The notes under the pieces are model-generated. The model ran no database searches. It was given only the letters and a program-made list of their open reading frames with translations, and had not been told where the DNA came from. Shown here in pieces: positions 19,158 through 37,831 of a stretch of 64,000 nucleotides of DNA. The position numbers were made by a program, and so were the translations under genes. This DNA comes from Clostridia bacterium (GTDB lineage: Bacteria > Bacillota > Clostridia > Christensenellales > Aristaeellaceae): contig JAGBBA010000064.1 in NCBI GenBank assembly GCA_017938695.1, positions 1 to 64,000 of the forward strand, written 5' to 3'. Every line of letters begins with the position of its first letter. The first letter of the stretch is position 1.

Positions 19158-20171
19158 TTATTTGCCTGCACCACGCAGGGCATGAGTGCCCACCCGGCGG
19201 CCCAGTTCAAACAGGCTGAAGCGGTCTTCGAAGGCCCGGCGGGCATTGCGGCACATCTGCTGATAGGTTTCCGGGTCGCGGAGGGTGTCCAACGCCTGGG
19301 CCAGGGCTTCGGGGGTCTTTGGGATGATCAGGCCGGTGCGGCCCTGGTCGATGTAATCGGGCACGGTGTCGTTGGGGGTGGTGATCACCGGCTTGCCCAG
19401 CATGGCGGACTGCAGGAAAACCAGCTGTCCGGAGGAAAACTTTTCGCTTTGCAGGGGAACCAGCGCGGCCCGGGCACCGGCCAGCAGGCGCAGGTACTCG
19501 TCGCCGTGGCAGTTTTTCAGGTACTTGATGTTGGCCGTGTCCTCGGACTTCTCCACGTCGCAGATGATCATCAGCGGGGCTTCGTCCTTGGGCCAGGCTT
19601 CCCGGAGGAAGGCGTAGTCCCGGTTGCTGCGGCCTGCGGCGACGTAGTAGGGCTCCTCAGGCTGGGCGTCACTGTACAGGTCGGGCCGGTCGGCCACGCC
19701 CAGGAGCTCGGTGGCGAACTTGTCCTTGCTCACGCCGAAGTAATCAGCGTAGTAGTCCACCTCGCTCTGGCTGTACACGACGATCTTATGCACATAGTCC
19801 GACGTGACCGTGTAGCGGACGAACCACTCGAACACCCGGCCGATCAGGCCCTTTTTCGGCTTGTAGATCAGGGCCATGATGGTGATCTGCGGCGGGTTTT
19901 TCACATGGAAGAGCCGCAGGAAAAACACGGTGATCAGCCCCAGGAACTGCTCCCAGGAGATGATGTGGGAGTACCGCTTGCGCTGGAAAAACAGTGCCAT
20001 TGGCCCCAGGAAATAGGTCAGGAACCGGGTGTATTTCTTGATCCCGTTGTACTGGTTGATCACGCAGACCTTCACATCCCAGGGGGAGCCGGTGGCCTTT
20101 TCCACGCCGCGGCGGAAAGGCCAGTCCTCGTCCACGGTGTTGCCCACCAGGATCAGCTTTTTCTTGTCCAT
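19158..20171 (-). CDS. Glycosyltransferase (GT4/GT-B like)
   Basis: The 337-residue protein looks like a retaining GT-B glycosyltransferase. The C-terminal half shows YYVAAGRSNRDYAFLREA (start of the donor domain), LLAGARAALVPLQ and SSGQLVFLQSAMLGKPVITT, with the SxG...LxxA.G.PVI pattern that binds the nucleotide sugar in GT4. A hydrophobic stretch near residues 50-95 suggests membrane association. It is the last of twelve minus-strand genes for a surface polysaccharide and ends at a terminator. Donor and acceptor sugars are unknown. Confidence 0.82.
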   Translation of the reverse strand: MDKKKLILVGNTVDEDWPFRRGVEKATGSPWDVKVCVINQYNGIKKYTRFLTYFLGPMALFFQRKRYSHIISWEQFLGLITVFFLRLFHVKNPPQITIMALIYKPKKGLIGRVFEWFVRYTVTSDYVHKIVVYSQSEVDYYADYFGVSKDKFATELLGVADRPDLYSDAQPEEPYYVAAGRSNRDYAFLREAWPKDEAPLMIICDVEKSEDTANIKYLKNCHGDEYLRLLAGARAALVPLQSEKFSSGQLVFLQSAMLGKPVITTPNDTVPDYIDQGRTGLIIPKTPEALAQALDTLRDPETYQQMCRNARRAFEDRFSLFELGRRVGTHALRGAGK

Positions 20172-20191
20172 GATGATCCTCCTATGCTGCG

Positions 20192-21424
20192 TCAGGGTTT
20201 GTCACAGAAGGCAGATTTGTACTTGGCGGCGATGTCCGGCCAGCTGTATGCCTCCCGGATGCGGGCCTTGGCCTTCTGGCCGTAGGCGGCGCGCTCTTCC
20301 TCCGGCATGCCGTCCACCTGATTGATAAGGGCCGCCAGGCTGCCTTCGGCCTTCTCCCAGTAGAGGGCGGCATCCTGCCCCACCTCGCTGTTGAAGCACA
20401 CGTTCAAAAGCAGGTTCAGGGGTGTGCTGCCCAGGGCCTCCAGCAGGGAAGGGTTGGTGCCGCCCACCTCATGCCCATGGAAATAGGCGTGGGCGTTCTC
20501 GCGGATCTTCATCAACAGCTCCTGGTCGTACACCGTGCCCACAAAGCAGATGCGGGGGTCCTGCCGGAAGTGCAGGCGGCTTTCCAGGTCGTCCAGGAAA
20601 TTCTGGTTCACGTTGGTGATGATGGCCAGCTTGCGCCGGGTGCGGCTGGCCATGTATTCGCGGATCATGGTTTCGTAGTTGTTTTCCGGCACGAACCTGC
20701 CCACGATCAGGTCATAGCCGTTCTTTTCCAGGCCCTTTTCCTTCAGCCAGGCGCAGAAGCGGGCGTCATCGTCCGCCAGGGCACTGGGCCGGGTTTCCGC
20801 ACCGTAGGCGATGAAGGTGGTCTTGGGCGAAGCACCGTGCATCCCCTTGCCGTCGTAGCTTTCGTGGATGTAGCGTTCGATGTTCTTCGAGTCGCAGATA
20901 GCCAGGTCGCAGAACTTGACCATCCGCCGTTCGGAATACTTCCAGTAGGCCCGCACCGGCGGTGCCCATTTGGCGCGCTTCCACTCGTGGCCGTCGGGGT
21001 TCAGGAAAACCCGGCCGCCCAGGCGGTGCAACGCGCGATAAAGCCAGCCGATGAAGGGGCCGATGCGGCAGGTCATGATATACACGATGGGGTGTTCGAT
21101 TTTCTCCCGGCGGATGATGCGCAGGCACTCCAGGAATGCTGCCAGGTCGTAATAGATAGCCTGGGCAGGGCCCAGCTTTTCCGGCACGGGGATGCGGAAG
21201 CAGCGGGCGTTGTGGTAGATAAAATTCTCCTCGTCGATGATCTGCGCGCCGGGGGTGGCGGCCGGATCCATGCAGCCGTCGCCGTTGGCCTTGCAGGCAA
21301 CGTGATACTGTACCTCGCCGTCCTCCTGGTGGTAGGCGGTCAGCTTGTCGATAAAGGTTTCATAGCCGCCGTACTTTCCCAGGGATTTGGCACCGATGCA
21401 GAAAACATGCTGGACATTGCTCAT
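20192..21424 (-). CDS. DUF1972-type glycosyltransferase (rhamnosyltransferase-like)
   Basis: The 410-residue protein starts with a DUF1972 domain (IGAKSLGKYGGYETFIDKL), the acceptor domain of transferases such as the capsule beta-1,4-rhamnosyltransferase Cps2T. The GT4-like donor half has YDLIVGRFVPENNYETMI and YFHGHEVGGTNPSLLEALGS, the E-x7-E motif region. It would add an early sugar onto the lipid-linked primer at the inner membrane face. The start overlaps the previous gene stop (ATGA at 21421-21424), indicating translational coupling. No rhamnose synthesis genes are seen in the window. Confidence 0.87.
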   Translation of the reverse strand: MSNVQHVFCIGAKSLGKYGGYETFIDKLTAYHQEDGEVQYHVACKANGDGCMDPAATPGAQIIDEENFIYHNARCFRIPVPEKLGPAQAIYYDLAAFLECLRIIRREKIEHPIVYIMTCRIGPFIGWLYRALHRLGGRVFLNPDGHEWKRAKWAPPVRAYWKYSERRMVKFCDLAICDSKNIERYIHESYDGKGMHGASPKTTFIAYGAETRPSALADDDARFCAWLKEKGLEKNGYDLIVGRFVPENNYETMIREYMASRTRRKLAIITNVNQNFLDDLESRLHFRQDPRICFVGTVYDQELLMKIRENAHAYFHGHEVGGTNPSLLEALGSTPLNLLLNVCFNSEVGQDAALYWEKAEGSLAALINQVDGMPEEERAAYGQKAKARIREAYSWPDIAAKYKSAFCDKP

Positions 21425-22317
21425 GATACATTCGCTTCTTTCGTTTGGGCGGTGGAGGTCTGGGCTTTTTGCTTGCGCCTGCTGTTCAGAAAGCTTTTCG
21501 CAAAGGGCACCAGGCCGGGGTAGTACCAGCGCATCATTTGCAGGAACCGCTTGCGCTGCCCGGGGGCGGCGTTCTTTTGCTTCAGGTATCCCTCCAGCAG
21601 GTTGCGCAGGGCGTGCATGGAGATCACCGGGCAGTTTTTCACCACCTCCGGGTGCTTGCGGCTGAACAATTCCAGCGCACAGAGCATCTTGTTATAATTC
21701 ACGCTGATGGAATCCTCGCCGATGATGTAATCCACCAGGGGGATGTCCATGCAGTAGGCCCGGTATTTTTTCATGGCCCGGTAGAGCCACTCCATGTCCT
21801 GATAGCGGGGCATGGCCGGGTCGAAGAGCACATGCTCCAGCACCTCGCGCCGGGCGAACACATTCTGCGTGCCAAAGCCGAAAATATCATCCTCCAGGGT
21901 GATAAAGCCCTCGCCCACGCGCTTGGGGAAAAGGGTTTTGCTGCCGTCGGGGTGGCACATGGCCAGCTTGCAGATCACGATATCGCTGCCGGTTTCGCGG
22001 ATGCAGTGCAGCTGCTTTTCCAGCTTATCGGGATACCACAGATCGTCGCTGTCGTGAAAGGCGATGTACTCGCCCCGGGCCAGGGCAATGCCGTGATTGC
22101 GGGCGGCACAGGCACCGGCGTTCTCCTGATACACATAGCGGACGCGGTCATCCTGCAGCCCCTCTACCACCTGCCGGGTATTGTCGGAGGAGCCGTCGTC
22201 GATGATCAGCAGCTCAAAATCCGCAAAGGTCTGCGCCAGAACGCTCCGGGCGGATTTTTCGATCACATGCGCCCGGTTATAGGAGGGGATGATCACCGAG
22301 ATCAGGGGCGTTGACAT
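21421..22317 (-). CDS. Glycosyltransferase family 2
   Basis: The 298-residue protein is a GT-A fold transferase: ISVIIPSYNRAHVIEKSARS at the start, LLIIDDGSSDNT (nucleotide-binding Asp), YIAFHDSDDLWYPDKL (metal-binding DxD) and QDMEWLYRAMKK (catalytic base region, EDxE-type variant). No membrane helix is present. It lies in the polysaccharide operon between the asparagine-synthase-like gene and the DUF1972 transferase. A second GT2 is at 25458-26315. Confidence 0.9.
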   Translation of the reverse strand: MSTPLISVIIPSYNRAHVIEKSARSVLAQTFADFELLIIDDGSSDNTRQVVEGLQDDRVRYVYQENAGACAARNHGIALARGEYIAFHDSDDLWYPDKLEKQLHCIRETGSDIVICKLAMCHPDGSKTLFPKRVGEGFITLEDDIFGFGTQNVFARREVLEHVLFDPAMPRYQDMEWLYRAMKKYRAYCMDIPLVDYIIGEDSISVNYNKMLCALELFSRKHPEVVKNCPVISMHALRNLLEGYLKQKNAAPGQRKRFLQMMRWYYPGLVPFAKSFLNSRRKQKAQTSTAQTKEANVS

Positions 22318-22350
22318 GGCGGGGTTCCTTCTTTCTTCTGCATGGGAAAA

Positions 22351-23877
22351 TCAGCTGTGCTGGTCAAACTTCCGCGACAGCTTTTTCTTCTCGATCTTGT
22401 GCTGGATAAAGCTCACGTAGGTCTGCACGGTTTTCTTTATGCCCAGGGTGCGCAGGCGGTGAAGGCCGCGCTGCAGCTTTTTGCCCAGCAGGGCCAGGGA
22501 CGATTCGCCGGAAATCTTGTCGCTGCCAAAGGGCACATCGCCAATGGCGGGGCAGACATGGCGGATGATCCGGGCCTGGTGGTGTTTGGTCATGCGCTCG
22601 TCCCTGGGGAATTCCAGCAGCATGCTCATGAACAGGCGGCAGTTGGCAGGCTGCAGGGAAACGGCGTGATCCAGCATATCGAAGCCGGACTCGATGGCGG
22701 AAAGCCAGCAGCCTTCGCGCTGCAGCCACAGGAACAGATTGCTTGCCACCAGGTCCTTTTCCGGGTGGGCGTCGTTCCAGGCGAAATACTGCTCCAGGGA
22801 GCGCTTTTCGATGGAATCTGCCTGCACGCCGAACCAGTCGTAAAAATCAAAGCCGGGGCCTGATTCGGTAAAGGTGCGGCGGAAGTATTCGATCACGTTT
22901 TCCCAGATGGAGCTGCGCAGGAAAGCCACATCTCCAAAAGATTCGATCAGCTGCTGATATTGCCCGTGGGCGTAAAAGATCCTGTCCTGGTCGCGGATCA
23001 GGCCGGCGGTCTGGGACAGGTAATCCTGCTCCAGCTGAGCATCGTACCGGTCATGATCCACGGGAACGTAGTGATGCTTCACACCAGTCAGCTCGCACAG
23101 CTTTTTCGGGATGCTGATATCATCGGTGTAGATGGTGTCATAGGCCAGGGTGTAGGCATCGAAGTCGATCCCGGCGTGCTTCGCCAGGGCGAAGAGGGTG
23201 CGGGAATCGTATCCGCCGGTGAGGGCGACCAGCAGCTTCTTTCCGCCCAGTGCCTTGCGCATGTTGTGCATGGAGGCGGTGAAAAGCCTGGTGAAGGCTT
23301 CGATGCGCTGTGCATCATCGGCGATGCCCTGGTAGCCCTGGGCCAGCAGCGGCCGGGCGGCTACTTCGCCGGTATCGTACTGGTACGTCTGGGAGGCCAG
23401 CAGCTTGTACACGCCCTCGTAGTGGGTCAGGGGGCCGGGCATCCAGTTCATCACACCGGGCTTGGGGGTGTAAAGCTGCTCCGGCAGCCCGGCGGCCTGG
23501 GCCAGCAGCGTGCAGTCGCTGGAAACGCCCCGGTCGCTGTAGAAAACGGAGAGCATGCTGCAGGTATCCGTATACACGGTGGCGCGGTGGATCAGCACAT
23601 AACGGCCGCACCAGGTCTCCTCCATGGCGAGGACGGCTTCCCGGGGTGCGCCCTGGGGATAGCGAACGCAAAGCTGGCTGATCTCCTCCTCGGGGGTGCC
23701 CCGGGAGGGATCCACCTGCCAGGCGATGCCCAGCAGCAGGGTCTGCTTGTCCTGGGAAATGAAAACCTTCAGCTTTTCGTGATAGCTGAGAATCCAGCCG
23801 TCATGCAGCGAAACATGCTGATACCCGGGCAGATCAACGGTGTTTTTCAGGATAGCGAATTGGCCGCCGCGGATCAT
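22351..23877 (-). CDS. Asparagine-synthase-like enzyme lacking an obvious glutaminase cysteine
   Basis: The 508-residue protein carries the ATP-pyrophosphatase PP-loop LVALTGGYDSRTLFALA (residues 217-232) of the asparagine synthetase family, with Thr in place of the usual first Ser. The N-terminal domain has the family beta-sandwich shape but begins MIRGGQ, without the Cys2 nucleophile of glutamine-dependent enzymes. It could therefore use free ammonia or another amine and amidate a carboxylate, for example a uronic acid of the polysaccharide; this is inference from its place in the operon. Its start overlaps the flippase stop by four bases. Confidence 0.8.
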   Translation of the reverse strand: MIRGGQFAILKNTVDLPGYQHVSLHDGWILSYHEKLKVFISQDKQTLLLGIAWQVDPSRGTPEEEISQLCVRYPQGAPREAVLAMEETWCGRYVLIHRATVYTDTCSMLSVFYSDRGVSSDCTLLAQAAGLPEQLYTPKPGVMNWMPGPLTHYEGVYKLLASQTYQYDTGEVAARPLLAQGYQGIADDAQRIEAFTRLFTASMHNMRKALGGKKLLVALTGGYDSRTLFALAKHAGIDFDAYTLAYDTIYTDDISIPKKLCELTGVKHHYVPVDHDRYDAQLEQDYLSQTAGLIRDQDRIFYAHGQYQQLIESFGDVAFLRSSIWENVIEYFRRTFTESGPGFDFYDWFGVQADSIEKRSLEQYFAWNDAHPEKDLVASNLFLWLQREGCWLSAIESGFDMLDHAVSLQPANCRLFMSMLLEFPRDERMTKHHQARIIRHVCPAIGDVPFGSDKISGESSLALLGKKLQRGLHRLRTLGIKKTVQTYVSFIQHKIEKKKLSRKFDQHS

Positions 23878-25421
23878 GCAGAACGCCTCCTTTTCAGCAA
23901 TTGGGTCACCTGCTTCCAGTCACGCCTGCTGAAAACGATCAGCAGGTGCAGTGCAGCACCGATGATCAAAAGCACCGCTGCCGAGGCGATCAGCGCAGGC
24001 CAGGAAGCAGGGGTGTACAGCAGGGAAAGACCCTTGAAAACGGCCACCAGCACCGCGCAGGACAGCACATTGCGCAGAATGTTGGGGTAGAAGGTCCACC
24101 AGGGCAGTTGCAGCACATGGGCCATATACAAGGGATTGGTAACGAAGTTGATCACAAACATCACGAACACGGTAGTCCACACCACGGCGTAAATGCCCAA
24201 ACTGGTGTAGCGGATGAGGAAATACATGCTCACCACGTTGAACAGGCCGCCTGCAATGGTGATCAGGGTGGGGAGCTTCTTTTTTAGCGTCAGGATATAG
24301 ATGTAGTAAAGGGGCTGCATGGGCCCGCCGGGGATGGTGGTCATGTTGCCGATGATGGTCAGCAGGTAGATCAGCGAGATGTCCTCATTGGGGATCCACA
24401 GCTTGTAGAAGGCCATGCCCAAGGCCACGAACCCGGCAAAGAAGATATTGCTCAGCATGCCGGAGAACTTCATGGCGATCTTCAGATCGCCCAGCAGGGT
24501 CTCCTTGTCGCCCTTGGCGTAGCTTCTCAGGTACAGGGGCTCGAAGGCCTGGCCCACCAGGATGAACATGCCGGCAAAAATGGCGTAGAATGTTTTCGAA
24601 AGTGCCAGCTGGCCCATGGCCAGGGGCGTGAGCATCAGGTTGCAGATGAGCAGATCCAGCCCCTGGTTCAGCATATCGCCCAGGGAGTTCAGCGTGGACC
24701 AGATGCCGTCCACCACCAACCGCTTGATGGCCTGGAAGGAGAAATAGCGACGCTGCACCTTTAGCTCAGGCGTATATCGTTTGCACAGCCAGCCGTTGCT
24801 CACCGCCACCACCAGGGACATGGTGGTGAGGCCGATGCCCACATAAAACACCCGGGGCGGCAGAAGGGTGTAGAGGGCGATCAACACCAGGGCCTCGCAC
24901 ACATAGGCCAGGGCCTTGAAGGCACCCACGGTGTCCAGCTTGTTTTTGATGTGCCCAGCCGCGCTGAAGGCGGTGGCCACCGTGGTGATCCAGAAGTTGA
25001 CGAACACGAAGAACATCAATAGTTTGACATCGGTGACGATGGCCGGGGAGATTTGCAAAACCTTTTCCATGAACGAGGTAAAACCCATGGCAATGGCAAA
25101 CAACCCCGTGCCCAGCAGAAAATCGCCGAAGACGGTGGAGGAAAAATACGTATTGGCCTCATCCAGGTCGTTCTTATGATAAGCGATCACGATGTAGCGC
25201 GCGGCAAAGGAATTGAGTGCCGAGGCGGCGATTACCGCATACTGCGCAATATTCTTGGCCAGGGAAACAAAGCCATAGGCCTCGGTGCCCACGGTGGAGG
25301 AGATCAGCGGTGCCAGCAGCAGGGCGATCATGCCGTTGAGCAGCAGCGCGCCGCCGGAAACGACGATCGTCCGCAGCAGCTTCACATATTTGTTGGTGGG
25401 TTTCGCTTGTTGCATGTGCAT
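23874..25421 (-). CDS. Polysaccharide flippase (Wzx/MOP superfamily)
   Basis: The 515-residue membrane protein has about 13-14 hydrophobic helices and resembles the oligosaccharidyl-lipid flippases. The first helix region (GGALLLNGMIALLLAPLISSTVGTEA, here cut) and GFVSLAKNIAQYAVIAASAL are typical of Wzx. It would move the undecaprenyl-linked repeat unit to the outer face for the polymerase encoded at 27345-28739. It is translationally coupled to the asparagine-synthase-like gene. Confidence 0.87.
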   Translation of the reverse strand: MHMQQAKPTNKYVKLLRTIVVSGGALLLNGMIALLLAPLISSTVGTEAYGFVSLAKNIAQYAVIAASALNSFAARYIVIAYHKNDLDEANTYFSSTVFGDFLLGTGLFAIAMGFTSFMEKVLQISPAIVTDVKLLMFFVFVNFWITTVATAFSAAGHIKNKLDTVGAFKALAYVCEALVLIALYTLLPPRVFYVGIGLTTMSLVVAVSNGWLCKRYTPELKVQRRYFSFQAIKRLVVDGIWSTLNSLGDMLNQGLDLLICNLMLTPLAMGQLALSKTFYAIFAGMFILVGQAFEPLYLRSYAKGDKETLLGDLKIAMKFSGMLSNIFFAGFVALGMAFYKLWIPNEDISLIYLLTIIGNMTTIPGGPMQPLYYIYILTLKKKLPTLITIAGGLFNVVSMYFLIRYTSLGIYAVVWTTVFVMFVINFVTNPLYMAHVLQLPWWTFYPNILRNVLSCAVLVAVFKGLSLLYTPASWPALIASAAVLLIIGAALHLLIVFSRRDWKQVTQLLKRRRSA

Positions 25422-25457: not shown

Positions 25458-26315
25458 TCAGCAGCCGCGCAGCTTTGCATAAATTTTGTAGAAGAACAAC
25501 TTGATCACATAAGGGGTCACCTGGGGCAGCTTGGCGCGCACGCCGCAGCGGCAGATGTTCCACAAAATGGCCACATGGGCCCGGGGATATTTACGGTAGT
25601 CCGCTTTGTTGATGCGGTAAATATTGCGGAAACCCTCGTACACCCGGTCCAGGCGGGTGGAGATATGGGCGCTGTTGTCCATGTGCTTGATGAAATACAC
25701 ATCGTTGGTGCCGCGGACGGCATACTTCCGGGCAATGCGGATCCACAGCTCGTAGTCCTCTTCAGCAGGCTGGTTTTCCGTCAGGAAGCCGCCCACCTCG
25801 CGCAGGGCCTTCATGGAGATCAGCGGCACGGAGGCGGAGCCCACATAGTCCGTCCACAGCATGTCCTCCAGGGTGGGTTCGGGCTTAAAGATCTGGTGCT
25901 GCCAGGTGTATTCTTCCTTGTCGCTGCCCTCAAACAGGATGCGGCCGGTCACGAAGGCGATGCCCAGGTTGGGCGTTTCGTCGAACAGGCGCACCTGGGT
26001 GGCCAGCTTTTCAGGATGCCACTCATCGTCGTCATCCAAAAAGGCCAGCAGATCGCCCCGCGCCTCCTCGATGGCATGGTTGCGGGCCTTGCACACGCCG
26101 CCGTTCTTCCCCATGGGGACATAGCGCACCTTGGCCAGCTTCAGTACCTCTTGGCGGATCTCCCGGCTGTATTCGCTGGTGGCGTCGTTATCGTCCACCA
26201 GCAGCAGCTCGTAGATGGGATAGGTCTGGTTCAGTACGCTTTCGATAGAACGGATGATGGACTTCCACTCGCGCTTGTAGGTGGTGATGGCAACGGAGAT
26301 TTTCCACTGGCTCAT
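25458..26315 (-). CDS. Glycosyltransferase family 2
   Basis: The 285-residue GT-A transferase shows WKISVAITTYKREWKSIIRS, ELLLVDDNDATSEY, NHAIEEARGDLLAFLDDDDE (metal-binding DDD cluster) and AEEDYELWIRIAR (catalytic ED). No membrane segments are seen. It is likely to add one sugar of the repeat unit on the cytoplasmic side. It lies between the flippase and the acyltransferase genes. Confidence 0.9.
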   Translation of the reverse strand: MSQWKISVAITTYKREWKSIIRSIESVLNQTYPIYELLLVDDNDATSEYSREIRQEVLKLAKVRYVPMGKNGGVCKARNHAIEEARGDLLAFLDDDDEWHPEKLATQVRLFDETPNLGIAFVTGRILFEGSDKEEYTWQHQIFKPEPTLEDMLWTDYVGSASVPLISMKALREVGGFLTENQPAEEDYELWIRIARKYAVRGTNDVYFIKHMDNSAHISTRLDRVYEGFRNIYRINKADYRKYPRAHVAILWNICRCGVRAKLPQVTPYVIKLFFYKIYAKLRGC

Positions 26316-26352: not shown

Positions 26353-27348
26353 TCAGTAACGGAACGCTTCTTTGATCACGGGGATCTTGCCCAGCACCCA
26401 GGAAGCAAACCAGGTACCGGCGATCAGCAGCAGCCACCCCAGGGTGGATTCCACCGGGCCGCTGACAAGAGAACGCATTTGGAGCGCATCCACCACGAAG
26501 GAGTGCAGCAGGAATGCGCCGAAGCTGCATCCGGCAAAACGGGCGAAGAAGCCGGAAAGCCCTTTGGATACGCGGAAAACCAGGAAGAGTACCGCGCTCC
26601 AGATGATGACCAGCAGGTTATCGTAAACGTAGTTGGATTCGATCTGCCCGGTGATCTTGTAGCAGAGGACGTATTGATAAACAATACAGAGCACCGTCAG
26701 GACAAGAGCGGCGATGGGCAGGTGCACAGGCTTAAATTTGCTTATGTCCAGGGTACTCAGGTAGTAGCCGAGGAAAAAATAGAATAGCCACGTCCACAGC
26801 CGAAGCCGCTGGTTGATCGCTTCCTGAACAAAGAAGCCCCCATTGGCAATGGAAACAAGAGATGCAATATCCACCAGAACGCAAACTGCACCCAAGGCAA
26901 GGGTCAGGATTTTCAAATGCTTTTTGATCAGCGGGAAAGCCAGAAGCAGCAGGGTGTAGATCAATCCGAAGGTGATCAGGAACCACAAATTGGTCACATG
27001 GTGATAGGCCAGCATGCCCTTGAGGCCCTCTTTGACGGACTGCATCAGCCCGGCCTGATGGAACAAAAGATAATACAGGCCGGTCACGCCGCCCCAGATG
27101 ATCAGAACGCGGATGATGCTGATAAGCTTTTTCTTGTAATAATCCAGGGGAAAGCTTTCCCTGCGAAGCATCAGCGCGCCGTTGACCATAAAAAACAGCG
27201 GCATGCAGCACCGCGCTGCATAGAACAACACGGCGTTGTGACAGGGATCGGTCACCTCTGCGCCGCGTTGGGTATGCAGAGCGAAAACCATCAGCAATGC
27301 AAAGGTTTTGATGCCATCCAGATAGACTTCTCGGCTCTTTGTTTTCAT
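26353..27348 (-). CDS. Acyltransferase 3 family membrane protein
   Basis: The 331-residue protein has about ten transmembrane helices and the acyltransferase-3 start: EVYLDGIKTFALLMVFALHT (with the conserved His) followed by CCMPLFFMVNGALMLRR. Family members move acetyl or other acyl groups onto sugars of surface polysaccharides. It overlaps the polymerase gene upstream by four bases. It is probably the enzyme that O-acetylates the operon's product. Confidence 0.9.
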   Translation of the reverse strand: MKTKSREVYLDGIKTFALLMVFALHTQRGAEVTDPCHNAVLFYAARCCMPLFFMVNGALMLRRESFPLDYYKKKLISIIRVLIIWGGVTGLYYLLFHQAGLMQSVKEGLKGMLAYHHVTNLWFLITFGLIYTLLLLAFPLIKKHLKILTLALGAVCVLVDIASLVSIANGGFFVQEAINQRLRLWTWLFYFFLGYYLSTLDISKFKPVHLPIAALVLTVLCIVYQYVLCYKITGQIESNYVYDNLLVIIWSAVLFLVFRVSKGLSGFFARFAGCSFGAFLLHSFVVDALQMRSLVSGPVESTLGWLLLIAGTWFASWVLGKIPVIKEAFRY

Positions 27349-28739
27349 GCTCGTTTATTCCTTTGCGGTTTTCTGTTCAATGCTCGTTTGGCACTGCCTT
27401 GCTTCAGCCTGGCAGCGCGCAGCTCCGCGCCTTTGGGCATGGAGGCATAGGCGATCTCCTTGCCCTGCTGCGCCAGGCCAAGCATCAAAAACAAGAACAT
27501 GGTGCCGTAGGAGGATGGCGTGAAGGCGCGTTCTGTCAGGCCGCGGATGAGCAGCACCATAATGATGGCACTGCATACTACATAGTGTTCCTCCGGGATT
27601 TTTTTCACGTTGATATAAGCGATGATCAGTGTCGCCAGGTAAATCGTCAGGCCGATCAGTCCCATGTCCAGCCACATTTCCAACAGCACATTGTGGGAGC
27701 CGAAGGTCATGGAGCGGAACCAGGAATCGCGGGAATAGCAATTTTGCAGGTTTTGCAGGGCGATCTCGTCGCGCCAGAACATGTTAAAGCCCGACCCTGT
27801 AAAGGTGTTGAACTGCTGCACATATTCCAGAATGCCTTCCCAGATCAGCGTTCGGTTGGACAGGGTGGCGTCCTTGCCGATGGAATTGAAGAAGGGCTCG
27901 AACAGGGGAAGGATCGTCATAGCGGCGATGAGAAAGCCGATGGAACCAACGGTATAGATGATCCCCCACTGAAAGCGGCCGCGGGCACCTAAACGCTTTT
28001 CCAGCACGAACAAAAAGGCGACCGGTATGGAGGCAGTGAACAGTGCACCGGCGTTCTGGCACAGGATCAGCAAAAACAGCTGAGCTGCCAGCACGCCCCA
28101 GAACAGCAGGGAGACTTTTTCTTTTTTATCCAGCTTCAGGCGGAGCAACACCATTTGCAGCACCATGCCGAAGCCCAGCTCCTGGCCCAGAGCGTTTTTA
28201 CGATCAGCAATGCCGCGAAAAAGATAGCGGCCCTCTTCGTCAAAATAGAAGCCGATATGGGGGAAAAGAAAATACAAAACCAGGTTCGCAAACACAAACA
28301 TGGTTTGCGCAGCGATGATAAATTCCAGCGTGCGCTTGATGTCATAGCGGTCGGTGACCCACAGGGCAAACAGGGCCGTCATGGTAAAGCGCAGGCAGGA
28401 GATGAGCTGGTCGGCCACATAGTTGGTCACAGCCATGGACTGGATGAAGAACACCGCCAGCAGGAAATAGGTAGGCATGTGCCGTTTTTTCAGGTCGATG
28501 ATCTTGATGTCCATCAGGTTGTCGGCGCTGGAAACCAGGATCACGGCGATCTGCAGGATGAAGGAGCTGTACTCGATGGCCATGCCGATGGCGCCGCCGA
28601 AGAATTCCCGGTAGTTGCCGGGAAAACCCATGCTGCAAAAAAACGCATAGATCACGATAAAATCGATGATGCTGTTTTTCTGCCGGTCCATCTGGCCGCT
28701 CAGTCGCCTGTCCATGGTTCCATACTCCATCCTGTTCAC
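27345..28739 (-). CDS. O-antigen polymerase-like (Wzy) membrane protein
   Basis: The 464-residue protein has ten to twelve hydrophobic helices and a long extracellular loop with LSNRTLIWEGILEYVQQFNTF and GSHNVLLEMWLDMGLIGL, the Wzy_C signature (Wzy/WaaL ligase-like, with His in the HN motif). It would polymerise the flipped repeat units outside the membrane. The ORF begins with a GTG that overlaps the VanZ stop; an ATG at 28715 with GGAG nine bases upstream is a good alternative start. The C-terminal tail is very basic. Confidence 0.87.
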   Translation of the reverse strand: MNRMEYGTMDRRLSGQMDRQKNSIIDFIVIYAFFCSMGFPGNYREFFGGAIGMAIEYSSFILQIAVILVSSADNLMDIKIIDLKKRHMPTYFLLAVFFIQSMAVTNYVADQLISCLRFTMTALFALWVTDRYDIKRTLEFIIAAQTMFVFANLVLYFLFPHIGFYFDEEGRYLFRGIADRKNALGQELGFGMVLQMVLLRLKLDKKEKVSLLFWGVLAAQLFLLILCQNAGALFTASIPVAFLFVLEKRLGARGRFQWGIIYTVGSIGFLIAAMTILPLFEPFFNSIGKDATLSNRTLIWEGILEYVQQFNTFTGSGFNMFWRDEIALQNLQNCYSRDSWFRSMTFGSHNVLLEMWLDMGLIGLTIYLATLIIAYINVKKIPEEHYVVCSAIIMVLLIRGLTERAFTPSSYGTMFLFLMLGLAQQGKEIAYASMPKGAELRAARLKQGSAKRALNRKPQRNKRA

Positions 28740-29422
28740 TGCGGGCAGAAGCGGCGGAAGATCCGGTAGCCCAGAAAGCCGACCGCGGCACCCAGAATAT
28801 TTGTAACGATGTCGGTCAGGTCAGCCTGGCCCAGCAAAAGGAAAAACTGCACGGTTTCGATCAAGGTGGTGGCCATCAGGGCGATGAGGATCACATGGCC
28901 CCAGGCGTCCAGCTTTTCCGGATAAACAAAGGGCAGCAGCACGCCCAGGGGGATGAACATGGCCACGTTTTGCAACAGGTGGTTCACCGGTTTGAGGGAA
29001 TGGGTGCGGATGGCCTTGCTGACCAGATCGGTGCGGAAGATGAAAACAGAGGTATCCTTGGCATACTCGCGGGAGAAGATGGTCACATAGGCCACCGCCA
29101 GCAGATACACGATGAAAAGGGTCAGCATGCCTTTGTTGATATGACACCAGTTCTGAAACAGCGCGTAGACGGCTGCCAAAAGAATCACGCAGGACATAAG
29201 CATCAGCAGGGTGAACAGGAGCATTTCTGTGCTGCCCAGGCTGCTGACGATGTAGATCACCGGCCCGGCGATCATCGCATAGGCAAGCAGCAGGACCACC
29301 GCCAGAAACGGACGCTTGATATACTCAGGGGCGCGGCGGGAGGCCATCTGCAACAGATAAATGTAGCCGCATACCAGCAGGATGCCGATGATGGCCAGCT
29401 GAAACACATTCTGGTTGGACAA
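28736..29422 (-). CDS. VanZ family membrane protein
   Basis: The 228-residue protein has six to seven membrane helices. The VanZ signature is in its last third: NHLLQNVAMFIPLGVLLPF, ETVQFFLLLGQADLTDIVTN and ILGAAVGFLGYRIF. VanZ relatives give low-level teicoplanin resistance in enterococci, but most are of unknown function and often lie in surface-polysaccharide loci, as here. Position between the Wzz/kinase-like gene and the polymerase suggests a role in export or anchoring of the polymer. Confidence 0.9.
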   Translation of the reverse strand: MSNQNVFQLAIIGILLVCGYIYLLQMASRRAPEYIKRPFLAVVLLLAYAMIAGPVIYIVSSLGSTEMLLFTLLMLMSCVILLAAVYALFQNWCHINKGMLTLFIVYLLAVAYVTIFSREYAKDTSVFIFRTDLVSKAIRTHSLKPVNHLLQNVAMFIPLGVLLPFVYPEKLDAWGHVILIALMATTLIETVQFFLLLGQADLTDIVTNILGAAVGFLGYRIFRRFCPQ

Positions 29423-31136: not shown

Positions 31137-32765
31137 TTATTTTTTCCTGCGCTTGCGGATATACGAGGGAATGGCGATGGCCATGGCGATGATGAACACC
31201 GCCAGGAAGCCGAACATCACATACTGCATCACATAGGTGGTATGGATGTTGATCACCTGCACCTCTGCCTGGTTGGCAATGCGGATATCATAGCGGGTTT
31301 CCGTGTCGCCGTCCTTGATCAGGTAGTAGCGGCCCTCTTCCAGCTCGTTGAACATCAGCGCGCTGCCGGTGGTGGTCCAGGTGCGGATCAGCTCGTCCTG
31401 CGCGTTGTACAGGGCCAGGCTCACGTTGGGCACCTGCACGCTGGAGAACTCATCCGTAATGCCGATGGAGGCGCGCAGCATGCGGTTGGTCAGGTTCACG
31501 GTGGCTTCGGTTTCCTCGCCGATGTAGCCGTTCAGGTCAACGGACACATGGGTTTCATCCTGGTTGTAGCGGTAGCCGGTGGTGGAGGCCGTTTGCAGGA
31601 TGCGGTAGGTCACGCCCTTGTCCAGCTCGTCCAGAAGGATGCGGCCGCTGCTGTCGGTGGTGTAGGAAACGGGCTCGCCGCCGGGCACGGCACTGATCAG
31701 GAACGTTGCGCCGGAAATGCCCCGGGTGTTGTAAAGCTCGTCGGTCAGGTTCAGGCGGATGCGGGTGCGGCGGCTGGCCACAGTGTTCAGCGTGGGCAGG
31801 GCGTCGGTCTTCTGGGCGACGGTCACCTCGATCTCCTCGGTCAGACCGGCGTAGTGATCGGGGATCTCCTTCTGCCGCAGGATATAGCTGCCCAGGTACA
31901 GCTCCTTGCTTTCGCCGTAGCCGTCCTCGTCGCAGGCAAGGGTGCCCACCAGCTGCCCGGCATAGTGGCGCATGGTGCCGTCGGCGGTGAGGATATCCTC
32001 GCCGGCGATGATATCAAAGCTGCCGCCGGAAACGGGCATGCCGGTTTCGGCATCGGTCATCTGCACGCGGATCACATTGCGGGCGGCAAACACCGGGATG
32101 CGCACCACCAGCGGTTCGGGCCAGTCGTATTCCTTGCCCAGGTAGAAGGCCACGTCCTCCGCCGGGTCGTAGCCTGCGGGGGTGGTCACCTGCCGGATCT
32201 CATAGTGCCCCTGGGCCAGCTTCTCCGGGAAGAAGAAGGTGCCGGCGTCGGTGGTGGCGTAGATGCGGTGGCTGAGAAGCTCGGGATAATATACGTTCAG
32301 GATCTGCAGGGCGTTGTTCTCGCCGTATAGCTCAAACTCCACGCCCGCTTCCTTGATGGTGCGGTTGGTTTCGGCGTCCACCATCATCACATACACGGCG
32401 GACTTGGCACCGGGATCGCCTTCGCCGTGGCTGTCATCGCCACCGCCGCCGCCGTAGCCGGGATGCACAGGCGTGGGGGTGGGGGAGGGCGTGGGCGACA
32501 CGGTGGGCGTGGGGGATGGGGTGGCGTAGGTGCCGCCGTCGCCGCCGTCATAGGCCCACAGGGGCGTGGGAGAAGGCGTGGGCGAGGAGGTAACGTCGCC
32601 GATTTCGGTGTCCACCAGCTCCTCGTCCGGCACATGGACCAGGTACAGGCCCATCAGGATGATAACGAGCATCAAGATCAGCAGCAGTGCAGAGAACATG
32701 TCGGAAGCAGGCTGCCAGAAGTTGAATTCATCGTTATTCGTAAATTTCTTCTTCTGCTTCATCAA
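31137..32765 (-). CDS. MotB/ZorB-like protein with prealbumin (SpaA-like) surface domains
   Basis: The 542-residue protein starts with a short basic tail and a membrane helix FWQPASDMFSALLLILML (17-34) that has an Asp (D22) at the position used by MotB, ExbD and ZorB for ion transfer. A Pro/Thr/Ser linker (SPTPSPTP type, about 60-100) and a Gly-rich patch follow. Residues 120-500 form three to four prealbumin-like beta-sandwich repeats of the SpaA/Cna-B type (for example GYRYNQDETHVSVDLNGY, LLDELDKGVTYRILQTAS). A second membrane helix (511-534) and a basic RKRRKK end follow. No peptidoglycan-binding OmpA domain is present. It starts in the stop of the channel gene (ATGA), so both are made together. 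Confidence 0.82.
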   Translation of the reverse strand: MMKQKKKFTNNDEFNFWQPASDMFSALLLILMLVIILMGLYLVHVPDEELVDTEIGDVTSSPTPSPTPLWAYDGGDGGTYATPSPTPTVSPTPSPTPTPVHPGYGGGGGDDSHGEGDPGAKSAVYVMMVDAETNRTIKEAGVEFELYGENNALQILNVYYPELLSHRIYATTDAGTFFFPEKLAQGHYEIRQVTTPAGYDPAEDVAFYLGKEYDWPEPLVVRIPVFAARNVIRVQMTDAETGMPVSGGSFDIIAGEDILTADGTMRHYAGQLVGTLACDEDGYGESKELYLGSYILRQKEIPDHYAGLTEEIEVTVAQKTDALPTLNTVASRRTRIRLNLTDELYNTRGISGATFLISAVPGGEPVSYTTDSSGRILLDELDKGVTYRILQTASTTGYRYNQDETHVSVDLNGYIGEETEATVNLTNRMLRASIGITDEFSSVQVPNVSLALYNAQDELIRTWTTTGSALMFNELEEGRYYLIKDGDTETRYDIRIANQAEVQVINIHTTYVMQYVMFGFLAVFIIAMAIAIPSYIRKRRKK

Positions 32766-34336
32766 GCCTTACCTTCGTTCATGATTTTTTCGAATTCTTC
32801 CAGAGACATCGGCTTGGAAAGGTAGAAGCCCTGGCCCTCGGTGCAGCCGCACTTGCGCAGCAGCGTCATCTGCTCCATGCTCTCGATGCCCTCGGCTGCC
32901 AGGTTGATCTGCAGCTTGCGGGCCTGCTCAAACATGCCGCGCAGGCTGTTGGGGTTGGCGGCGGCGTTGCAGCGGCGCAGGTCCAGCTTCAGTAGGTCGG
33001 CCTTGATGTCCTCAATGGCCTGCAGGGCCATATAGTCGCCGTCGAAGCCGTCGATGGCCACGCGGAAGCCAGCCTGGCGCAGCTTTTCCTCGGTTTCGAT
33101 GGCTGCCTCGGGGCACTGCAGATAGGCGTTCTCCGCGATCTCGATCTCCAGGCTGCGGGGCGGGATGCGGTACTTCTTCAGCATTTCGGTAAAGAACTCG
33201 GTGATGTCCATGGCCAGGATATCCGTCTTGGTCACGTTGATGGACAGGGGCACCGGGCGGATGCCCTGGTCGATCCAGCGGCGGACGGCGGCGCACACCT
33301 GCTCCCAGATGTGCTTGTCCAGCTTGGTGATGGAGCCGTTCTTTTCCAGCACGGGGATGAACTCCGCCGGGGACACCGTGCCCAGCTTGCCGTGGTTCCA
33401 GCGAACCAGGGCCTCGGCACCCACCACCTTGCGGGAGTTCAGGTCAAACCGGGGCTGGAGGTAGAACACGAATTCCCCCGTGCGCAGGCCCTGGAGGATC
33501 TGGGGCATCAGGGTTTGCTCTTTGCCGGTGGCAGGGGCAGCAGCGGGGTTGTTGCCGCCGTCGGCTGCGGAAAAGGGCAGCGCGCCGCCCTTGCTCATCT
33601 TTTCCAGCAGGTCGGTGATCTGCTTGATCTCCTTATGCTCGCGGTAGCGCAGCTGCTCATCCACGGTGGGGATGATATTCTGATGGAATTCCTCGGTGAA
33701 AAGGCCCATGTTGCGCAGCACCATGTTCCAGGCAATGCGGTACATGATGTTGAACGCCAGGGACAGGATCAGACCGGCGATGGAGGTGTAGAAAGCCACC
33801 TGGATACCGCCCAGCAGGGCCTGCACGCTGGTCAGGGCTGCGCTGACGGTGCTGAAGCCGATGTTGCGGATACCCATGATCAGGCCGATGAAGGTGCCCA
33901 GCAGGCCCAGGCCCGTCAGGCTGCCGGGAATTTGATGGATCACGTTCTGCCAGCTGCGCAGGGCCAGGCTTTCCTCGTTGATGAACTCGTCGATGTCAGA
34001 CAGCACCTGGCCGGATTCGCGCTGGGCCTGCACCTTGGCGCGGTAATCGGTAAAGATCTCGTCCATGGTGCGCTGGTGGAAAAACTCGTCGATCTGAAGC
34101 ATGGCGGCCCAGGTGGACTGGCTGGGCATGGAAAGCGCATGATCGATGTTCTCCATGCCGGTTTCAAAGCCGTGATAAAACTGCACCGCCGGAAGGATGC
34201 CAAACAGGCCGCCCGCCACCAGAATGCCTTCCATCAGCACGATAAACACGGTGGAAATGGAGTCGGGGGCGTAGGCCATCAGCACGATGCCGGTGATCAG
34301 GATCAGGGCCATAAAGGTGTAGATCAGTCTGCGCAT
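32762..34336 (-). CDS. MotA/ExbB-like channel fused to an EAL (c-di-GMP) domain
   Basis: The 524-residue protein has four membrane helices (about 7-23, 28-50, 133-157, 173-199). Helices 3-4 carry IPGSLTGLGLLGTFIGL and LLGGIQVAFYTSIAGLILSL, the signature of MotA/TolQ/ExbB/ZorA ion channels. After a linker, residues 275-522 are an EAL domain: EAL (308-310), N367, EIAE (399-402), K450, E482, Q502. The DDFGTG loop reads DGFDGD (429-434), so the second metal Asp is lost. It may hydrolyse c-di-GMP poorly or only bind it. It heads the polysaccharide operon, with the MotB-like partner overlapping by four bases. A c-di-GMP-gated ion motor is inferred. Confidence 0.87.
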   Translation of the reverse strand: MRRLIYTFMALILITGIVLMAYAPDSISTVFIVLMEGILVAGGLFGILPAVQFYHGFETGMENIDHALSMPSQSTWAAMLQIDEFFHQRTMDEIFTDYRAKVQAQRESGQVLSDIDEFINEESLALRSWQNVIHQIPGSLTGLGLLGTFIGLIMGIRNIGFSTVSAALTSVQALLGGIQVAFYTSIAGLILSLAFNIMYRIAWNMVLRNMGLFTEEFHQNIIPTVDEQLRYREHKEIKQITDLLEKMSKGGALPFSAADGGNNPAAAPATGKEQTLMPQILQGLRTGEFVFYLQPRFDLNSRKVVGAEALVRWNHGKLGTVSPAEFIPVLEKNGSITKLDKHIWEQVCAAVRRWIDQGIRPVPLSINVTKTDILAMDITEFFTEMLKKYRIPPRSLEIEIAENAYLQCPEAAIETEEKLRQAGFRVAIDGFDGDYMALQAIEDIKADLLKLDLRRCNAAANPNSLRGMFEQARKLQINLAAEGIESMEQMTLLRKCGCTEGQGFYLSKPMSLEEFEKIMNEGKA

Positions 34337-36091: not shown

Positions 36092-37831
36092 TTACTGGGC
36101 ATTCAGCCATTCCTCGAAGGATTTTTCAGATACATTCGCCATGGAGAATTCCACGTCCCACCAGTTGCCGGTGGGCTGGTAGCTGGCCAACTCCTGAGCG
36201 TCGCCGTTCACCAGGTATTCACGCAGGGCGATCTCGCCATCCTCGTCGGAGAACAGGGCGGTGTAGCAGTAGGTGCGCTGACGGGCCTCGCCTTCGGGAA
36301 TGTCCAGCAGGGTGCGGCCGTAGGCGGCAGCGTCGATGCCCAGGCCCTGCAGATAGGTGGCAGGCAGGTCCTCGTGGCATACGGGGGCGTTGGAAATGGC
36401 CAGGGGTGCATCGGCAGCACCGGCGGGTTTGACCATCATCAGAGGTGCGGCGGCCTGGGGGAGATCCAGGCTGTCGCCGCCGCCGGAGTAGCCGTGGTCA
36501 GCGGTGATGACGATGGTGCTCTGGTCGTAAATGCCCAGGGCTTTCATCTGCTGCACATACTCGGCTACCATCCGCAGGGAGCCGCACATGGCGTCGGTGC
36601 GCTGGGGGGTGTAGTCGTACACGAAGTCCAGGTTGGCGTCCCAGCAGTAGCCGGGGTGGTTGCCCCACAGGTGGTAGAAGCGGAAGGCCTTCTTGTAATT
36701 GTCCGTGGCGGTCAGGGTCTGGTCTGCCAGCTCGTAGTAGAAGTCGCAGTCCAGGTTGCTGAAGTAGGTTTCCTCCAGGGTCATGGACTCTGCGCCGATG
36801 TCGAAGGGATCGTACTCGTACTCCTCCTTCAGCGCATAGGGGGCCAGCTTGTACAGGGAAATGGTGCCCATGCCCTGCACCAGGCCGGGCAGGCTCAGGT
36901 TTTCCAGCTGGTTATAGGCATAAGCGGTGCTGTTGGCGATGATATCGCTGGCGGCGTTGCCGATCATGCCGATATCCTCGGTATAGATGCGCACGTCCGT
37001 CCCGGCGGCGTGCATGTCCCGCAGGAGGGTGCCGTTGGTAAAGGCACGGTCCACATACAGGGCGGGGTCTTCGTTGAAATAGAAGCGTTCGCCGGTGAGC
37101 ATGTAGGTCAGGGAGGGGAAGGTGCGGCTGTAAGCACTGGTGGCGTTGGGGAAGTAAGTGAAGCCGGAAAGCTCGCTGTGCAGCTCGGGGTACTGGGCCA
37201 GGGTGTCGTTCACGATGCTCACGTCGCTGGTATCCAGGATGAACACCACCACGTTTTCGCCCTTGGAAAGCTCAAACTGGCCGTTGCCGGTGAGGAAGGT
37301 TTCCAGCTGGCCGCCGGAAAGGTCGCTGGTGAAGATCAGCGTTACCAGGGCCAGGGCCTGGATGCCCGTCAGCGCGGCGGAAACATAGCGCAGCACGTTG
37401 TGGGCCAGCTGTTCCTTCTTTTTGAGCAGCAGCACGATGGTCGCCGCCAGCACCGCCAGCAGGATCGCGCCCCAGATCACCAGGTTCACGGTGATCTGCC
37501 CGGGGGTGATGTTCATTTCCTCGCCCGTGAGGGTCACCATGCCGCCGTTGAGGAACATGCTCTGCACATAGCAGCCAAGGCCCAGACCAGCGGTGAGGGC
37601 ATTCAGCAGCAGGGACACCTTGCGGGGAAGGAGCATCTCCACGGCGGTGAGCAGCAGCGCGGCCAGAAGGGTCGCGGCCAGCATGATCCACCACACATGC
37701 TCAAAGGGCATGACGAAGGAGCTCAAATTGCCCACGTACACTTCCATGGGGGCAAAATAGAGCACCGTGCCTGCCAGAAACAGGTTGCACAACAGGGCTG
37801 TCAGCAGCTTGGCTTTCCAGGGATGCTTCAT
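36092..37831 (-). CDS. LTA-synthase-like membrane sulfatase/phosphatase-superfamily protein
   Basis: The 579-residue protein has about five N-terminal membrane helices (residues 8-175) and an extracellular alkaline-phosphatase-superfamily domain. NVVVFILDTSDVS gives a metal Asp/Thr start, TSAYSRTFPSLTYMLTGE offers a candidate nucleophile Thr, and VITADHGYSGGG gives the C-terminal metal Asp/His pair. This is the plan of LtaS and phosphoglycerol transferases, which use phosphatidylglycerol outside the cell, but the LtaS-specific motifs are not conserved. It is the last gene of an operon with the YidC/CDP-glycerol-transferase fusion, so a role in a glycerol-phosphate surface polymer is likely. 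Confidence 0.85.
   Translation of the reverse strand: MKHPWKAKLLTALLCNLFLAGTVLYFAPMEVYVGNLSSFVMPFEHVWWIMLAATLLAALLLTAVEMLLPRKVSLLLNALTAGLGLGCYVQSMFLNGGMVTLTGEEMNITPGQITVNLVIWGAILLAVLAATIVLLLKKKEQLAHNVLRYVSAALTGIQALALVTLIFTSDLSGGQLETFLTGNGQFELSKGENVVVFILDTSDVSIVNDTLAQYPELHSELSGFTYFPNATSAYSRTFPSLTYMLTGERFYFNEDPALYVDRAFTNGTLLRDMHAAGTDVRIYTEDIGMIGNAASDIIANSTAYAYNQLENLSLPGLVQGMGTISLYKLAPYALKEEYEYDPFDIGAESMTLEETYFSNLDCDFYYELADQTLTATDNYKKAFRFYHLWGNHPGYCWDANLDFVYDYTPQRTDAMCGSLRMVAEYVQQMKALGIYDQSTIVITADHGYSGGGDSLDLPQAAAPLMMVKPAGAADAPLAISNAPVCHEDLPATYLQGLGIDAAAYGRTLLDIPEGEARQRTYCYTALFSDEDGEIALREYLVNGDAQELASYQPTGNWWDVEFSMANVSEKSFEEWLNAQ

Follow-up and report, generated by a model that had tools for sequence, protein, structure and literature searches.

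A predicted ZorAB/MotAB-class motor pair with an EAL domain forms a conserved module with a polysaccharide co-polymerase gene in Clostridia

The B subunits of known ion-driven motors of the 5:2 class, such as ZorAB and MotAB, have one helix and a periplasmic anchor. In ZorAB, residue D24 or D21 of ZorB packs against a Ser/Thr ring of ZorA (PMC11890865), and A subunits outside flagella carry extra domains, many of unknown function, with the EAL domain absent from the main text that describes them (PMC12505986). For polysaccharide export, cycling of the co-polymerase Wzc between an octamer and phosphorylated monomers is described as crucial for synthesis and export (PMC8285477). A review of capsule chain length names cyclic dimeric guanosine monophosphate (c-di-GMP) just twice, both times, in the sections available, for synthase-dependent systems, and contains neither ‘proton motive’ nor ‘MotA’ (PMC12220298). 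Here we describe a locus in a 64,000-nucleotide stretch of DNA from a Clostridia bacterium (contig JAGBBA010000064.1 of assembly GCA_017938695.1, positions 1 to 64,000; hereafter the window), in which a predicted motor pair, genes A and B, directly precedes the co-polymerase gene W. The source genome is 2.53 Mb in 76 contigs and 87.5% complete. A-B-W is a real, conserved module. A literature search for MotA/ExbB and EAL in combination with polysaccharide, c-di-GMP or Wzz found nothing relevant; most subscription papers were outside its coverage, so earlier publication is possible.

The module in the window consists of the following features:

32762..34336, minus strand: gene A, 524 aa, a ZorA/MotA-type four-helix channel subunit with an EAL domain
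33554..34336, minus strand: channel part of A (residues 1-261); T148 and S185 are its polar-ring positions and align with ZorA residues
32765..33544, minus strand: EAL part of A, residues 265-524, with matches at E <= 1e-10 to 31 different PDB sequences (best 6.3e-39)
31137..32765, minus strand: gene B, 542 aa (541 from ATG), made up of a ZorB-type helix and linker, then SpaA-type domains and a further membrane helix
29451..31091, minus strand: gene W, 546 aa, a Wzz-type polysaccharide co-polymerase with a BY-kinase-like ATPase domain

A profile of the channel part of A was searched against 308 genomes of the window's family (Aristaeellaceae). A was present in 21 of these, all at E <= 1.2e-97, with the next matches from about 1e-31. 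An order sample of 396 genomes gave 32 matches at 1e-12, where G000 and G064 have A and the rest score like ZorA paralogues (<=109 bits). A class sample of 391 genomes gave five matches: G000 again, G677 and G983 as newly found true relatives, and a further pair scoring in the ZorA-like range. Within the families of G983 and G677, A was found in 3 of 68 and 1 of 6 genomes respectively. No new A was detected at E <= 1e-18 in a phylum sample of 299 genomes, which gave five ZorA-like matches, and three scans of viral contigs found no relatives of A or B. One contig scan used a single protein as its query and found one locus; an alignment is the better query. The total of 25 A subunits thus comprises 21 from the window's family, 1 from G677 and 3 from the family of G983, with L041 and L096, which are the same contig (18,385 identical bases), counted once. 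L041, from the window's family, is part of a metagenome-assembled genome from roe deer rumen, and its A is 68% identical to that of the window. Across the three families of Clostridia the relatives' A subunits are 37-69% identical to A of the window and identity in B falls to about 30%; conservation over this range places the A-B pair beyond chance.

The gene order was constant wherever it could be followed. B lies directly after A in all 24 loci whose contig runs beyond A (the A of L111 is cut by the contig end), and W directly after B in all 23 loci that reach it, 19 in the family including the window and 4 outside. In two further genomes, G578 and G660, the end of a B gene immediately precedes W on its contig. 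A profile of W applied at 1e-40 recovered 22 of the 308 family genomes, namely the 21 with A (E <= 4e-180) and a distant match in G587 (1.2e-42), whose fetched stretch contains neither A nor B. Fisher's test for co-occurrence of A and W gave p 1e-31, a descriptive value that ignores relatedness. Distances for the A channel, EAL, B and W also correlate (r 0.84-0.95, 18 loci), and were not counted as evidence of contact because common descent alone would give them. It is very probable that A and B are a functional partner of W.

The link of the A-B pair to polysaccharide assembly is strong. Polysaccharide genes follow W in all 17 family loci that extend beyond it, the window counted, with a Wzy relative in 16; at L108, W is followed by two glycosyltransferases and a sub-threshold Wzy_C match. 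Outside the family, L141 and L156 have polysaccharide genes by the trio. The initial annotation, which was made from the sequence of the window, had proposed a gene pair associated with capsule genes, and the cross-genome search upheld this: neither a general lack of polysaccharide context nor absence of the EAL domain from most homologues was seen. It had placed the pair upstream of Wzz, Wzx and Wzy; the position at the head of a polysaccharide operon stands, and the tightest partner is W, which joins Wzz and BY-kinase-like parts, rather than Wzx or Wzy; at two of the four loci outside the family, L142 and L157, the trio lies among housekeeping genes.

Gene A had been read as a MotA/ExbB/ZorA-type four-helix channel joined to an EAL domain, and the profiles agree, with a Pfam MotA_ExbB match (E 3.1e-10) over residues 91-203 and an EAL match (E 1.1e-55) over residues 280-509. 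The window copy has four hydrophobic helices and a channel part of approximately residues 1-250. MotA_ExbB was above the Pfam cut-off in all seven A subunits scanned, of the 25 known, and 23 PADLOC ZorA profiles matched A (E 7.1e-16 to 0.057). Against PDB, the best match of a channel-part profile built from six sequences was 8vvn_C, the type I ZorA of Shewanella (2.1e-14), followed by four more ZorA chains (8qyy, 8qyk, 8qyh and 8qyd, 5.7e-14 to 3.6e-13) and 8vvi_F (7.4e-6); other matches (0.0045 and weaker) were unrelated proteins. T148 and S185 of A, both aligned to ZorA residues, are invariant in 25/25 A subunits. D22 of B is likewise invariant (24/24) and occupies the same register as ZorB D24/D21, as fixed by the ZorB profile match described below. 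Membership of A and B in the 5:2 motor class of ZorAB and MotAB is well supported by these profiles and residues, in agreement with the initial annotation's channel pair with an ion-path Asp, and a working ion-driven pair of this class is highly probable.

In a tree of channel parts (41 rows), the 25 A subunits group together, apart from 15 of 16 ZorA-like rows, 13 of which are from the window's family. The branch uniting them has support of only 97/72, and a very long ZorA-like row, L139 from another family, falls inside it. The three EAL-less rows form one group (100/100). The tree carries a warning that long branches meet, and it leaves gain versus loss of the EAL domain unsettled. ZorA-like matches of the conventional kind are frequent in the window's family, and the source genome has a second, conventional pair (L046:5318-7923, contig C51) with a longer-tailed ZorA-like subunit and a ZorB-like subunit bearing an OmpA domain.

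B had been described as a MotB/ZorB-type helix with an Asp, followed by SpaA domains and a second helix in place of an OmpA domain, and each of these elements was recovered. Residues 3-42 match positions 5-44 of the PADLOC ZorB profile (E 1.8e-5), so that the ZorB-type helix is a scored match beyond visual likeness. A search of PDB with the first 45 residues by phmmer gave 0 matches; a profile of B matched pilin SpaA chains best (9.2e-5) and 8vvn_B weakly, in the first-helix region (E 0.019). Pfam identified SpaA in three stretches (best E 2.4e-25). Helices lie at residues 25-43 and 516-534, with a Pro/Thr/Ser- and Gly-rich linker after the first and a basic tail after the second, and about 470 residues, including the SpaA-type domains, lie between them. 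Two hydrophobic helices are present in 23/23 full-length copies, and the tail behind the second has a net charge of +3 to +8 across copies. No OmpA domain was found in the window B with Pfam, PADLOC or NCBIfam, nor among the families listed for nine B subunits scanned. A sortase-anchored SpaA pilin was considered and rejected, since no LPXTG-type signal was seen in the last 120 residues of 20 B rows, all from the window's family; 19 of these rows have true C-termini, and L099 is truncated where its contig stops.

If the first helix is oriented as in ZorB, and given the basic tail, B should have its two ends inside and its SpaA-type part outside. Since the second helix places both ends in the membrane, B would hardly rotate freely, and the adhesin-like stalk of the initial annotation is revised to this extent. 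B could stay still while A turns within it, or could bend.

Of the 24 A subunits whose length allows a judgement, 21 have the EAL domain and three lack it; the 25th (L111, from G660) is truncated at the edge of its contig yet reaches into the start of the domain. The three exceptions, all from the family of G983, stop after the channel part (254-278 aa depending on the start chosen), and no EAL match was obtained in the two of these three copies scanned. Site residues, presumed to include those that contact c-di-GMP, were counted in 20 complete EAL domains of the window's family, with positions matched through alignments to PDB sequences. E308, R312, N367, D429, K450, E485, Q502 and P509 are kept in 20/20. 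E402 is kept in 14 (Q in 5, M in 1), the window and L096 among the keepers, E482 in 16 and D452 in 14. The DDFG loop is changed, reading DGFDGDY at residues 429-435 in the window, and its second Asp is kept in 0/20 (G in 16, S in 4). Both Asp residues of DDFGTG are metal ligands, and FimX, which is without the motif, is described as inactive (PMC5301497). An active EAL phosphodiesterase was set aside as unlikely on the DDFGTG loop, which has both Asp in none of the 20; of the metal ligands E, N, E and D, the residues E308, N367 and D429 are kept in all 20 and E402 in 14.

Because the second Asp is lost throughout, a sensor is likelier than an enzyme, and the EAL domain is probably a c-di-GMP sensor. 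That it senses c-di-GMP as such is somewhat better than an even prospect on the residues kept. The source genome has nine GGDEF matches, so c-di-GMP is probably made. The built-in c-di-GMP domain proposed at the outset is thus retained as an optional part, sensor-like rather than a phosphodiesterase, and gating by c-di-GMP is plausible for the window's family alone. In one relative, a further EAL-type stretch (L105:855-1511; 24% identity) lies about 8 kb from A.

W matches the tyrosine autokinase model TIGR01007 at 1.8e-20, under the NCBIfam cut-off, and Wzz weakly (0.019). Its helices at 23-41 and 188-206 with a domain between them have the Wzz layout, and a kinase-like P-loop domain is identified by profile. 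The source genome encodes two other Wzz-domain proteins at separate places, which marks W as a special kind. A separate locus of this genome (L161) encodes an ordinary trio: a CpsB/CapC phosphatase, Wzz, and a kinase-like protein whose last 40 residues include six Tyr. In L097, L098, L100, L101 and L144, W reaches 834-939 aa and has a long tail.

The tail of W behind the kinase-like domain has no Tyr in the window copy. Altogether 18 of 21 family copies have none, where the 21 include the copies of G578, G594 and G660 taken from other contigs; the exceptions are L108 with one Tyr, L101 with three scattered over a 493-residue tail, and G660 with four in a cluster. No Tyr was found in the W tail of L141, from G677, so that a degenerate EAL and a tail free of Tyr occur together there. 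The W tails of the three EAL-less systems have 4, 5 and 7 Tyr, most of them tightly clustered right behind the kinase-like domain. This pattern suggests that control by tyrosine phosphorylation has been given up in most EAL-bearing systems. A strict swap of the tyrosine cluster for an EAL domain was rejected, as it is contradicted by G660. The Walker A Lys of W is replaced by Arg in 5 of 18 aligned family copies (window, L042, L097, L098 and L100) and by Val in L141; given the Arg, ATP use by W may be weak or lost in the window and its four relatives.

From these observations we propose that five A subunits around two B would form an ion-driven complex dedicated to W. Ion flow past Asp22 of B and the Thr/Ser ring of A would turn or flex A relative to B. 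Being held in the membrane at both ends, B would serve as an axle with outer stays for which a peptidoglycan anchor is not needed. The motion would be handed to W, pacing the assembly and release of the W oligomers that set chain length and, with them, export through Wzx and Wzy. Whereas this cycle is run in ordinary capsule systems by phosphorylation of a tyrosine cluster on the kinase, the cluster has been lost from W in most of the window's lineage, and there c-di-GMP, bound by degenerate EAL domains lying beneath the A ring, may have taken over control. The links of this chain that can be read from the genomes are the protein families, the ion-path residues, the A-B-W linkage, the co-occurrence of A and W, the loss of a metal ligand from the EAL domain and the absence of tail tyrosines from most W. 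We estimate the probability of the chain as a whole, an ion-driven A5B2 complex that drives or gates W under c-di-GMP control, at roughly 0.4, lowered from 0.43 because one EAL-bearing system (G660) keeps its tyrosines. It is more doubtful that the locus represents a new class of envelope machine, that is, a rotary-type ion motor with B anchored at both ends that powers or gates Wzx/Wzy polymerization through W, with c-di-GMP replacing tyrosine phosphorylation in most of one lineage.

Several observations weigh against the proposed chain. Regarding control, the W of G660 has its cluster of 4 Tyr although its A runs into an EAL domain, so that the two can coexist and are not exclusive, and few independent lineages underlie the contrast between Tyr and EAL: a family that has EAL, a family that lacks it, and G677 by itself. 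The EAL domain of G677 (L141) is without E308, N367, D429, K450, E485 and Q502, its Pfam match still being 2.7e-28; because nearly all its site residues are lost, control by c-di-GMP cannot be general. Some predicted phosphodiesterase activity may remain where E402 is kept together with E308, N367 and D429 (14/20, including the window), and the conserved acidic motif DGFDGD could serve another chemistry or a different site. Regarding the motor, no counterpart of the second helix of B is known to us among 5:2 motors, and the residues ahead of the first helix carry no clear positive charge (-2 to +3). The altered Walker A motif of the window W means that W may not need ATP cycling at all. Finally, none of the neighbours scanned beside the trios of L142 (8) and L157 (6) is a polysaccharide gene. 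The eight at L142 encode YicC, guanylate kinase, a tRNA synthetase, a phosphoesterase, a response regulator, a protein with a weak match to sensor kinases and two proteins without a match; the six at L157 encode two ribosomal proteins, a C39 peptidase, two ABC transporters and a CYTH protein. Just before the EAL-less trio of G983, at L142:5895-9540, lie the weak sensor-kinase match, a 436-aa protein without a match and a LuxR-type response regulator, which might control that trio.

Four other explanations were weighed against a motor acting on W. The outer part of B might instead feel polysaccharide or contact, with the load on A-B altering the EAL domain and its output, phosphodiesterase activity or a protein interaction, passing to c-di-GMP signalling. 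Flagellar stators are known surface sensors, some 470 residues of B are exposed between its helices and contain SpaA-type domains, and E402 is accompanied by E308, N367, D429 and K450 in the 14 EAL domains that keep it, those of the window and L096 included. Such an output fits poorly with the loss of the second DDFG Asp in 20/20 and of E402 in 6/20, and all three members found of one family lack the EAL domain while retaining A-B-W, making surface sensing unlikely. A and B might also move or wrap finished polymer at the cell surface without acting on W. The MotAB-like Agl motor moves Exo polymer round the Myxococcus spore and is dispensable for export (PMC3858216), and the outside domains of B could bind glycan. 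The strict linkage of the pair is nevertheless to W, even in the two loci with no other polysaccharide genes seen nearby, and none of the operon's genes has a Pfam label of the Glt/Nfs kind, though no search was aimed at those families; transport at the surface is judged improbable.

The additional helix of B and its missing peptidoglycan anchor, both unusual in a motor, would suit a non-conducting scaffold, a channel-derived frame that organizes Wzx, Wzy and W in the membrane with no ion flow. The ion-path Asp (24 copies) and the polar ring (25) are however unvarying even where identity falls to 37% in A and to about 30% in B, and a frame of this kind seems quite improbable. The matches of A and B to ZorA and ZorB profiles might point to phage defence of the Zorya kind placed in a polysaccharide operon. 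This is very hard to reconcile with the lack of a long ZorA tail and of an OmpA domain on B, with a fixed partner that is W, and with ten other genes of or around the operon that gave no PADLOC match at E <= 0.01. Membership in Zorya was rejected on the absence of the tail, of OmpA and of any ZorC/ZorD or ZorE match, a check that applied PADLOC to those ten genes and covered the glycosyl- and acyltransferases by Pfam only.

The remainder of the operon in the window is as follows:

28736..29422, minus strand: VanZ-family membrane protein (Pfam VanZ, 5.5e-20)
27345..28739, minus strand: Wzy-type polymerase or ligase (Pfam Wzy_C, 1.7e-10)
26353..27348, minus strand: Acyltransferase-3 family protein (Pfam Acyl_transf_3, 1.6e-27)
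25458..26315, minus strand: glycosyltransferase family 2 (Pfam, 3.3e-30)
23874..25421, minus strand: probable Wzx-type flippase, 515 aa, labelled by place and appearance, with no family match
19158..23877, minus strand: a 508-aa protein, a glycosyltransferase of family 2 (GT2), a DUF1972 glycosyltransferase and a glycosyltransferase of group 1 (Pfam)

The genes from A through the last of the operon (to 19158) are on one strand with intergenic gaps of -4 to 45 nucleotides, and A is the first because the open reading frame (ORF) upstream is on the other strand, starting at 34647. The overlap of A and B noted initially is present, in a different form: the junction is TTGATGA rather than a plain ATGA, and the TGA of A shares one base with an ATG, or four with a TTG start. 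Overlaps of the ATGA kind are present in several relatives. A promoter scan upstream of A gave one weak site, about as many as in shuffled sequence (mean 0.8), and no c-di-GMP riboswitch was found at Rfam gathering scores in the window and four loci. The putative Wzx gene at 23874-25421 had 0 matches in Pfam or NCBIfam scans; its homologues occur within the operon in 9 of 16 fetched loci extending beyond W. Further upstream, a membrane protein with a sulfatase-family domain, possibly a polymer-modifying enzyme (36092-37831, minus strand), lies between the operon and a 697-aa ORF (38118-40211, minus strand) with a YidC-type insertase domain (60KD_IMP, 26-276) and a CDP-glycerol glycerophosphotransferase domain (332-609). 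The latter would be an insertase joined to a teichoic-acid-type polymerase.

A motor pair that is the fixed neighbour of a co-polymerase suggests that a sugar coat may be made or exported under motor power or motor control. Inheritance of the pair with the co-polymerase makes testable how ion gradients and second messengers feed Wzx/Wzy assembly. If the proposal is correct, it would give the ZorAB/MotAB motor class a new output, with a c-di-GMP-type domain in a new place, on the channel subunit itself, and B as a possible motor B subunit lacking a peptidoglycan anchor.

Compared with described systems, A and B have the channel family and one ion-path Asp in the B helix in common with MotAB, ExbBD, TolQR and GldLM, and differ from these in having no OmpA-type anchor and in the EAL domain on A. 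The best structural relatives by sequence of A and of the first helix of B are the ZorAB pairs of types I and II (PDB 8VVN and 8VVI), in which the Asp and the Ser/Thr ring stand at the same positions. In place of the long cytoplasmic tail of ZorA, A has an EAL domain or nothing, and in place of the peptidoglycan-binding domain of ZorB, B has SpaA-type domains and a second helix; no Zorya effector was found here, and A-B is linked to W. Among degenerate EAL receptors, LapD also has a changed DDFG loop and a kept pocket, and in both LapD and FimX the EAL domain is fused to GGDEF and other sensor parts, whereas in A it is fused to a channel. In FimX the DDFG loop is changed or missing and the pocket kept, as in A (PMC5301497). 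W shares the Wzz layout and a BY-kinase-like domain with Wzc/CapAB (PCP-2), which cycle by tyrosine phosphorylation (PMC8285477), while most W of the window's lineage are without the tyrosine cluster and stand behind a motor pair. The nearest precedent that we know of for a motor of this class on polysaccharide is Agl-Nfs. We know of no EAL domain in AglRQS and of no link to a Wzz/BY-kinase gene of this kind. AglRQS of Myxococcus, with Nfs/Glt, is, like the proposed A-B pair, a MotAB-like motor working on surface polysaccharide (PMC3858216); it differs in acting after export and with a large envelope complex.

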